Part shown: positions 32,952-53,553 of the stretch, in pieces | How positions within the stretch are numbered: the stretch's first letter is position 1 | Layout: each line of letters opens with the position of its first letter | From: Thermococcus aggregans | GTDB taxonomy: Archaea > Methanobacteriota_B > Thermococci > Thermococcales > Thermococcaceae | Direction of reading: 5' to 3' | Assembly: GCF_024022995.1 (NCBI RefSeq) | Contig: NZ_CP099582.1 | Coordinates: forward strand, 930,001-994,000 | DNA length: 64,000 bases | Translations under genes and position numbers: made by a program | The notes under the pieces: generated by a model | What the model saw: the letters and a program-made list of their open reading frames with translations, nothing else | Databases searched by the model: none | Told to the model about the DNA's origin: nothing

Positions 32952-33824
32952 ATGGCCCTTGAAAAACTCGGAGAGAACCTTTATCTTTACCCCGGGAGCC
33001 CTTCAACAATGATAAAAGCCGGAGAGGATGTAGTAGTTGTTGACCCGGGAAATGGGAGCAAGAGACACAAAGACCTCAGGCGAGAGCTGAGAAAGATAAA
33101 CCTTGAGATTGATTACATGCTCTCCACTCATGGGCATGCTGACCACATAGCCATCGCCCCAAAGCTTGGAAAGCCCCTTTTCATTCACCGATATGAGTTC
33201 TCCATAGCAGAGAGCCCAATCAACAGAGAACTCTTGACCTTCGGCTCAAAAGCACCAAAAGGGTTTTTAGTTTACCAGTTTTCGGATGAGATTAAAGTCC
33301 ACGGTATTTTTGAATGGGGAGACGAGCTCTTTGGGCTGAAAACAGTAGAGCTTTCTGGACACTCCCCGGGAATGACGGGTTTCCTCGATGAAGAGAACGG
33401 TGTTTTATATGCAGGCGACAGCTTTTTTGGAGAGAGGGTTATTCAATCGGTGGGCTTACCTTATCTTGTTGAGCCAGAGGTTTTCAAGGAGTCCATAAGA
33501 AAATTAATGAGCTATGCAGAGGAAGGAATTCTGCTTATACCGTCTCATGGAAGAGCCGTAAAGGGAGAGGAGGCTTTAAAACTGCTTGAATTTAATCTCC
33601 AGAGGGTTGAAGAAGGAGAAAGGAAAATCCTCGAGCTGTTAAAGGAACCAAGGAGCATAAGTGAGCTCAGCTATGCCCTTGCAAAGGAATTTGGAGCAAA
33701 GATAACGCCTCAAGCACTTGCGCTGAACCAAGTTCCAATAAGGGCAATTATAGCAGGACTATACAATAGAGAACTTATAGAGGCGGTTGTGGAAAAAGAC
33801 CTCAAGTGGAAAGCTAAGGAGTGA
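32952..33824 (+). CDS. MBL-fold hydrolase with C-terminal helical domain
   Basis: This 290-residue protein has an MBL domain ('STHGHADHIA' HxHxDH, 'LSGHSPGMTGF', 'YAGDSFFG', 'IPSHGRAVKG') and a C-terminal region of about 70 residues resembling a winged helix ('ERKILELLKEPRSISELSYA'). The C-terminal part recalls the LACTB2-like group of MBL enzymes, which includes RNases. It ends the operon with the OB-fold and HD genes and overlaps the convergent Cas4-like gene by 11 bp. Confidence 0.85.
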   Translation: MALEKLGENLYLYPGSPSTMIKAGEDVVVVDPGNGSKRHKDLRRELRKINLEIDYMLSTHGHADHIAIAPKLGKPLFIHRYEFSIAESPINRELLTFGSKAPKGFLVYQFSDEIKVHGIFEWGDELFGLKTVELSGHSPGMTGFLDEENGVLYAGDSFFGERVIQSVGLPYLVEPEVFKESIRKLMSYAEEGILLIPSHGRAVKGEEALKLLEFNLQRVEEGERKILELLKEPRSISELSYALAKEFGAKITPQALALNQVPIRAIIAGLYNRELIEAVVEKDLKWKAKE

Positions 33825-34434
33825 ATCCGTTTCCAAAGCAGATGTAATAGTAGGGGCAGAATTTGCAGGTGTAGTCATGCCATCCCTCCGGAGGGATGTC
33901 CTTTTCATAATGTTTTTTTATCAGGTAGAACCGCTTCACGGTCTCTTTGAAAAGCTTCTCGTCGTAGGGCACTTCAAACGCTTTAAAGCCCTTGCCCTTG
34001 ACTATTGGAAACCTGGAAAAATCTATGCCTTTTAAAACCTTTTTCGGCTCTTCATGCAGCTTAACGTAGTACAAATAGCCGTATTCACTTTCCGCCCACC
34101 TCAAATAAACGTTCAGCTGTGCCAAATGATAATCGTAGGGAATTCTTGGGAGGTAAGTTTTTCCCTTTATCTCTATTGGAAACTGCCTGAAAGCATCTAT
34201 CCTTCCGTGGATTTCAAGCCCGAGGCGGGGGGACTTAAGCACGATGTGCTTTTCAAGCTCAAAACCAAATCTCTTCTTAAGAATCTCGCCAAGAACGTTG
34301 TGGGTATTAACCCCTCGCTCAAGCCTGACCCTTACAAACTCAGGCCATTTTTCTTTGTATCCTTTAAGACGAAAGTAAACCCTTCTGGGGCACGTCATCG
34401 CCTCGCTTGCATAAAACTCAAGTAGCTCGGTCAT
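33814..34434 (-). CDS. Cas4-like PD-(D/E)xK exonuclease
   Basis: This protein of about 206 residues is a Cas4/RecB-type nuclease. An N-terminal Cys lies in 'EAMTCPRRVYF'; the PD-(D/E)xK core is 'HGRIDAF' and 'PIEIKGKTY'; 'HLAQLNVYL' is the QxxxY-like motif; a C-terminal cysteine group 'CKFCPYYYIC' completes a [4Fe-4S] cluster. No CRISPR array or cas operon is in this window, so it is a solitary copy, perhaps in DNA repair. I start at ATG 34434 with GAGGGAG upstream. The frame is open to 34512, but that extension is a C/D sRNA gene. Confidence 0.85.
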   Translation of the reverse strand: MTELLEFYASEAMTCPRRVYFRLKGYKEKWPEFVRVRLERGVNTHNVLGEILKKRFGFELEKHIVLKSPRLGLEIHGRIDAFRQFPIEIKGKTYLPRIPYDYHLAQLNVYLRWAESEYGYLYYVKLHEEPKKVLKGIDFSRFPIVKGKGFKAFEVPYDEKLFKETVKRFYLIKKHYEKDIPPEGWHDYTCKFCPYYYICFGNGFTP

Positions 34435-34456
34435 TCTTGCTCCCTCAAAGATATTT

Positions 34457-34519
34457 AAAGCGTCAGCTAATACCGACGTCATCATCGACTCAGACTGGGC
34501 AAGGCCCATCATCCGCTAA
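34457..34519 (-). ncRNA. C/D box guide sRNA
   Basis: On the minus strand the boxes are: C ATGATGG (34512-34506), 12-nt guide, D' CTGA (34493-34490), 4-nt spacer, C' ATGATGA (34485-34479), 12-nt guide, D CTGA (34466-34463). The outer ends AGCG (34517-34514) and CGCT (34462-34459) pair to close the k-turn. Both guides have exactly the 12-nt length usual in archaea. A TATA element TTTTAAA near 34541 predicts a start at about 34515. Predicted targets are 5'-ACUGGGCAAGGC and 5'-CUAAUACCGACG, where the nucleotide paired five bases from each D box would be 2'-O-methylated (G and U). I cannot check which rRNA or tRNA carries them. Confidence 0.82.
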
Positions 34520-34578
34520 CTAAAATACCCGTGTAAGGTTTAAAATATTTGAGGTGAGGTAAGGCAAAAAAGAAAAAA

Positions 34579-52935: not shown

Positions 52936-53010
52936 ATTGACTCGCCACAGATATTTTTGGCGCAGAAAAATAAAAAGTTTTATATGAGGTTTCATAACTC
53001 AGATAGTGCG

Positions 53011-53553
53011 ATGATGAATGAATCCAATGCTGAAGGGATGATTGACCCCAGAGTGGCTGAGCGTGAAAAAATGGAAAGTGAACTCAAAAAATTAAACGAA
53101 AATGTGGCAAGGCTTTCTAAACAGATGGGTGAGATACAGGAAGAGCTGGATAGAAAAAACAAGCCCGATAAACTTGGATGGGATGACGTGGTTCAGGAAA
53201 TCATCGGTGCAATGACGTTTTCTCTCCCATTCCTCTTTACCGAAGAGATATGGGACATAGCAAAAACGATAGACGTATGGCGAACACTTGCCATCTTCCT
53301 AATGACTCTTTTTATGGCCTACCTCTTTATTTCAAAGGCCAAACTTTCAAACATAGAAAAGGAAGAGTGGCATCACATACCTAAAAGACTACTTACTGTC
53401 ACGGCTGTTTCCTATATGACCTCACCCCTTTTGATCTACCTTTACGGCGTAAGCAGCATCGCCAACTTCTCATTAGGGCAGTATATTAGCGCCACAATCA
53501 TCGTAAGTACTTTTGCTGTTATCGGAGCTATAGCGGTTGATCTGGTGAAGTAG
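53011..53553 (+). CDS. Membrane protein with N-terminal coiled coil (DUF2391-like)
   Basis: This 180-residue protein has a coiled coil (about 18-50, 'MESELKKLNENVARLSKQMG') followed by four hydrophobic helices ('IIGAMTFSLPFLF', 'LAIFLMTLFMAYLFI', 'LTVTAVSYMTSPLLIYLY', 'SATIIVSTFAVIGAIAVD'). It resembles the DUF2391 group of putative integral membrane proteins; that call is tentative. A TATA box TTTTATATG at 52977-52985 predicts a leaderless transcript at ATG 53011. The stop is followed at once by the TOPRIM gene, so these two are one operon. Its first 50 bp also match a C/D sRNA pattern. Confidence 0.7.
   Translation: MMNESNAEGMIDPRVAEREKMESELKKLNENVARLSKQMGEIQEELDRKNKPDKLGWDDVVQEIIGAMTFSLPFLFTEEIWDIAKTIDVWRTLAIFLMTLFMAYLFISKAKLSNIEKEEWHHIPKRLLTVTAVSYMTSPLLIYLYGVSSIANFSLGQYISATIIVSTFAVIGAIAVDLVK

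Follow-up and report, generated by a model that had tools for sequence, protein, structure and literature searches.

Double-guide C/D box sRNAs aimed at helix 18 of 16S rRNA have been predicted in crenarchaea (Dennis 2015, PMC4644070). The examples given there, Tte sR114, Iho sR21, Pca sR28 and Sac sR115, resemble the sRNA described here in that both guides address 16S helix 18. This likeness is one of targets: the crenarchaeal guides target archaeal A512 and G491, and the present sRNA positions 511 and 482 by count. The D' target of another double guide in that account, Iho sR206 G482 (PMC4644070), is by our count the same nucleotide as the G454 discussed below. Overlap with the 5' end of a gene is given for 7% of archaeal C/D genes, and an arrangement of this sort, with an sRNA at the 5' side of an mRNA, is said to be uncommon and to come at a cost to the gene downstream (PMC7994747, section 8). 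For Thermococcus kodakarensis, 11 C/D sRNAs are placed in 5' UTRs (PMC4247193). Compared with such 5'-leader sRNAs, the type described here stays paired with one gene, a solo cas4, across its family (59 of 62 loci). While this kind of sRNA is well known, one would less have expected it to stay so stably paired with cas4.

The closest Rfam family is RF00095 (snoPyro_CD, Pyrococcus C/D box sRNA), with which the sRNA has length, boxes and the core of the D' guide in common. The family model exceeds its cut-off both here and in a likely P. abyssi genome (56.1 bits), and it gives 15 matches at E ≤ 0.001 in the genome studied here, two of them above cut-off. RF00095 is thus a loose family that names neither the orthologue nor the targets of the sRNA. 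As a whole, the locus is very probably best explained as a double-guide C/D box sRNA of the Thermococcaceae that directs methylation of 16S helix 18 and whose transcription in part runs through into cas4.

The sRNA and its conservation

The window, i.e., the whole 64,000-nucleotide stretch of DNA that was analysed, carries an archaeal C/D box guide sRNA, whose elements follow one another 5' to 3' as closing stem GCG, C box, D' guide, CTGA, a short spacer, TGATGA, D guide, CTGA and closing stem CGC:

34460..34516, minus strand: C/D box guide sRNA, 57 nt, 5' end 34516 and 3' end 34460 (RF00095 46.2 bits, model R1 83.7 bits)
34514..34516, minus strand: closing stem, 5' strand GCG, pairing with 34460-34462 (sequence and alignment)
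34509..34514, minus strand: C box GGATGA (UGAUGA with U->G), invariant in 25 aligned sequences, in its inferred register
34494..34505, minus strand: D' guide, 12 nt, pairing with 16S 450-461 and predicting Gm454
34490..34493, minus strand: D' box CTGA (sequence and alignment)
34479..34484, minus strand: C' box TGATGA (sequence and alignment)
34467..34478, minus strand: D guide, 12 nt, pairing with 16S 480-490 and predicting Um483
34463..34466, minus strand: D box CTGA (sequence and alignment)
34460..34462, minus strand: closing stem, 3' strand CGC, pairing with 34514-34516 (sequence and alignment)

The assignment to this well-known kind of archaeal RNA, as originally predicted, is supported by the Rfam match, by orthologues that match strongly in 87 of the 94 genomes of the family and by the paired targets in helix 18. 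The Rfam score lies just 1.2 bits over the gathering cut-off of 45 (E 1.8e-6 for the whole window). A relaxed C-D'-C'-D pattern matches twice in the window, at the sRNA and at sR46, and gives five matches summed over 60 dinucleotide-shuffled windows. The host genome also encodes fibrillarin (343.4 bits). The second-best Rfam match, sR12, was rejected as the identity of the sRNA, scoring 30.0 bits against its cut-off of 38, and no exact sR number was found for it.

The original prediction (all four boxes, two 12-nt guides with a short D'-C' spacer, and an AGCG/CGCT closing stem) holds for the guides and spacer and for the D', C' and D boxes, which match exactly. The C box does not: in the kink-turn register it departs from consensus by one base (GGATGA for UGAUGA), and in the alternative register it reads ATGATGG against RUGAUGA. 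With G3 as the first C-box base, the ends of the sRNA fold as G1-C57, C2-G56 and G3-C55, a GAU bulge, tandem GA/GA and G10-C51. Both G10 and C51 are invariant in the 25 aligned sequences, which agrees with the kink-turn register, and a kink-turn is probably present at C/D, judging from the letters and from the known rules for kink-turns. The three GCG/CGC pairs of the closing stem are general, though changed or lost in a few sequences (TTG/CAG, CAG/CAC); the proposed fourth pair, A-T, is missing in many relatives.

A DNA search detected the sRNA in 23 of 41 genomes, which is 23 of the 25 belonging to the same family; completeness is 61% and 77% for the two family genomes missed. R1, a covariance model based on 25 sequences, scores at least 66 bits in 87 of the 94 genomes of Thermococcaceae, the next match falling to 47 bits, and matches strongly in 73 of the 74 that are high-quality. 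Among those with no strong match (G001, G004, G044, G081, G082, G085 and G097) G082 alone is high-quality. Outside the family, R1 found no sRNA in the 21 other genomes of the class at E 0.01 under stricter filters (115 genomes searched, 94 of them family). Across the 25 aligned sequences the D' and C' boxes and most guide positions are invariant, and the guide bases vary no more than the boxes do.

Predicted targets in 16S helix 18

All 12 positions of the D' guide pair with bases 450-461 of the genome's own 16S, the one beside the box as a G-U, and the pairing extends one base further. For the D guide the partner is 16S 480-490, with one internal G-U and a mismatch beside the D box. The fifth base from the D' box falls on G454 and the fifth from the D box on U483 (own numbering); both are Watson-Crick paired at this position, and they lie 29 nt apart. 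When ten pairs are required and no more than one may be G-U, the organism's own 16S and 23S rRNA offer a single site to each guide. Shuffled guides matched singly in 4.6% of cases, and in none of 1500 shuffled pairs did both match rRNA. The two target sequences originally put forward for a search of the rRNA do not occur in it exactly as written; the sites actually present in 16S are GCUGGGCAAGGC and GUAAUACCGGCG, the box-proximal base differing in both and the second containing one G-U. An exact genome-wide search for both targets returned the sRNA gene itself, 16S and one further place, G000:994743, only. This extra copy of the D' target, ACTGGGCAAGGC (G000:C1:994743-994754, L121), lies 743 bases beyond the window, and no Rfam family was found there.

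Counted from GCCGCGGUAAUAC, G454 is equivalent to approximately G505 of E. coli and U483 to U534, on opposite strands of helix 18 in the decoding centre. GCCGCGGUAAUAC is universal in 16S and contains G530. The archaeal number given for G530 is G507 (PMC4644070). Of the 13 16S loci read, all 11 from the family have the same target region, and the two from outside it, both from genomes without the sRNA, deviate: in L043 both target sites differ, and in L054 the D' site differs and there are changes outside the D core. Two such genomes are too small a sample to build on. Since the rRNA targets are invariant within the family, compensatory changes cannot support the guide pairing.

The sRNA most likely directs marking of the ribosome decoding region. 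L7Ae, Nop5 and fibrillarin would assemble on it; within helix 18, the D' guide would pair with the 5' strand and lead to ribose methylation of G454, whose approximate E. coli equivalent is the first base of the 530-loop pseudoknot, and the D guide would pair with the 3' strand and lead to methylation of U483. With both strands held by the sRNA, folding of helix 18 might be delayed until release, a chaperone-like step. Could this be the main role, with the sRNA binding both strands as a folding chaperone and methylating little or not at all? Both guides aim at one helix, and such a role has been proposed for double guides (PMC4644070). In addition, Tables 2-3 accompanying the 3.2 Å model of the P. 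abyssi 30S subunit list no 2'-O-methyl in helix 18 (PMC7005279), despite the presence of the sRNA in the likely P. abyssi genome. However, a map at this resolution may overlook ribose methyls, and Watson-Crick pairing of both predicted bases at the fifth position from the box is the setting for methylation. We therefore consider a chaperone with little or no methylation unlikely. P. furiosus RiboMeth-seq data exist (PMC7758197). The missing P. abyssi entry also speaks against guide-directed methylation, and a further point against the main reading is that the circular-RNA table for T. kodakarensis (PMC9014305, section 15) has no entry at the place of the orthologue in the likely T. kodakarensis genome. 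A literature search confined to main articles, among which the year-2000 Pyrococcus C/D paper cited by PMC7994747 did not turn up, found no published helix-18 target for this sRNA in Thermococcales. With guide-directed methylation as the preferred reading, an sRNA kept in most Thermococcaceae gains a predicted paired target in the decoding centre, and the prediction is that a single RNA accounts for two ribose methyls in helix 18, one on each strand.

Promoter and start of the solo cas4 gene

Upstream and downstream of the sRNA the following features were assigned:

34539..34547, minus strand: TATA box TATTTTAAA of the sRNA, probably also of cas4 (TTWAA at this distance in 59 of 62 loci)
34451..34459, minus strand: TTTAAATAT, originally proposed as a second TATA-like box, probably no promoter (not kept in relatives)
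34440..34446, minus strand: Shine-Dalgarno (SD) sequence GAGGGAG of cas4 (from sequence; SD-like motif in 59 of 59 cas4 loci)
34435..34512, minus strand: spurious lengthening of the cas4 frame by 26 codons (one of 59 loci is open through the sRNA)
33814..34434, minus strand: solo cas4, 206 aa, corrected start 34434 (TIGR00372, PADLOC)

The cas4 product matches TIGR00372 at 106.8 bits (curated cut-off 65) and the PADLOC Cas4 model at 1.8e-34; the Pfam PDDEXK_1 score of 20.3 is below the cut-off of 22. The sole cas1 match in the genome (G000:1472512) is about 0.5 Mb away, which places this Cas4 outside a CRISPR adaptation locus. P. furiosus Cas4-2 presumably also occupies a solo position, apart from the adaptation genes, a likeness of placement. 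Cas4-2 is described as controlling directional spacer integration (PMC9419969).

The leader was compared across 64 loci, of which L056 and L105 were dropped as duplicates to leave 62. In 59 of these, cas4 begins 15-55 nt past the sRNA and has an SD-like motif, scored by a loose pattern, ahead of its start. In the eight loci of genus g2 this gap is 15-21 nt, except for one at 32, and in three loci of genus g5 (L034, L035 and L038) the sRNA is present with no cas4 within 1 kb. The cas4 frame of the window is open from an ATG at 34512, and one could read the whole stretch as a true N-terminal extension of the nuclease, with the boxes arising by chance. The comparison already contradicts this, and we give it a negligible chance: the one locus with the frame open through the sRNA is the window itself, the stop falling inside the sRNA in 32 loci and in the spacer in 26, and an SD precedes the inner start in every cas4 locus. 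The boxes are kept and the frame is lost, the opposite of the pattern (boxes lost, frame kept) that had been named beforehand as refuting an RNA gene. The 26-codon extension is an accident, made of RNA-gene sequence as had been suggested, and the cas4 gene start is corrected. A second C/D sRNA of the window, sR46 (RF01130, 82.7 bits; 53007-53062, plus strand), likewise overlaps the beginning of a protein frame (52957-53553); the ATG just after the RNA is probably where this frame really starts.

The TATA box TATTTTAAA ends 22 nt before the sRNA. A TTWAA starting 32-24 nt upstream of the sRNA is found in 59 of the 62 loci (the others being L109, L110 and L113), compared with 427 of 12400 random positions, which bears out the claim of a TATA box at the right distance. 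In T. kodakarensis the TATA box lies a median of 23 bp before the transcript start (PMC4247193), so by analogy the 5' end of the sRNA may equal the transcript start. The second box, TTTAAATAT, reads TTTAAACAC in near relatives and is too close to the ATG to leave room for a leader with an SD, and is therefore probably no promoter. Given the short distance to an SD-led cas4 start, one promoter probably serves both sRNA and cas4. In genus g2 the gap is too short for a separate promoter and leader, and it carries an SD, so that read-through best explains cas4 transcription there. Transcription would begin at or near the 5' end of the sRNA, a part reading on into cas4, and the sRNA would be trimmed out of the cas4 leader. 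Of the two arrangements first envisaged, joint transcription with the nuclease is thus plausible and favoured by the short gap and the SD; tandem transcription from TTTAAATAT, a box not kept in relatives, is unsupported.

The cas4 leader in genus g3 and other guide RNAs

If the sRNA serves the ribosome, what does it do in front of a nuclease gene? In the sister genus g3, the base right after the sRNA is the first of a hairpin some 37 nt long (32 of 62 loci, 22 distinct sequences), for example:

L033:1962-1998, between sRNA and cas4: g3 hairpin
L098:1464-1500, between sRNA and cas4: g3 hairpin

Its nine pairs are formed in 98.5% of cells, three of them are changed on both sides (reached by 4 of 500 shuffles), and its covariation score exceeds all 500 shuffles. 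The minimum-energy fold of one member is no better than that of shuffles (z -0.51), so it is covariation and position that make the case for the hairpin. GA-GG ... CC-NAU-GA, its inner part, resembles a kink-turn. A model of the hairpin was run on 21 g3 genomes and matched next to the sRNA in all 21, but in none of 17 others, among them the genome studied here, which lacks the hairpin; one g3 genome has two more weak matches elsewhere. Rfam gave no match to it at cut-off in L033 and L036 and none at E 1 in L033, no complement of the loop of at least 9 nt was found in the organism's own 16S and 23S loci, and a literature search confined to main articles returned no report of it. The hairpin is a conserved single-locus element missing from Rfam. 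In the three g5 loci without cas4, an inverted repeat of another kind, rich in G+C, comes after the sRNA.

These leaders raise the question of whether the sRNA acts mainly in cis, its kink-turns binding L7Ae in the cas4 leader and controlling translation or mRNA processing. Placement of the sRNA before cas4 in 59 of 62 loci and the extra kink-turn-like hairpin in g3 are in line with this, and Sulfolobus L7Ae is described as autoregulating through a kink-turn in its 5' UTR (PMC5539422). However, the three g5 loci retain the sRNA with no cas4 nearby, and guide bases that are conserved like the boxes and match helix 18 are unneeded for a cis role. A mainly cis-acting sRNA is accordingly quite improbable, and control of this kind could come as a role added to guide function. 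It is similarly doubtful that the solo cas4 leader forms an L7Ae platform, made up of the sRNA and, in g3, the kink-turn hairpin before the SD; if true, the output of a CRISPR-type nuclease would be tied to free L7Ae and hence to ribosome assembly.

Other guide RNAs were seen in neighbouring or similar arrangements. The sRNA of the likely P. abyssi genome has a divergent neighbour, the H/ACA RNA HgcF, and sR52 lies about 1.1 kb away, a small guide-RNA group (L040:2132-2299 and 865-923). Elsewhere in the genome studied here, at G000:C1:1147131-1147277 (L015, L016), two C/D-like matches occur on opposite strands 33 nt apart, and several relatives carry similar close opposite-strand pairs of C/D-like matches.
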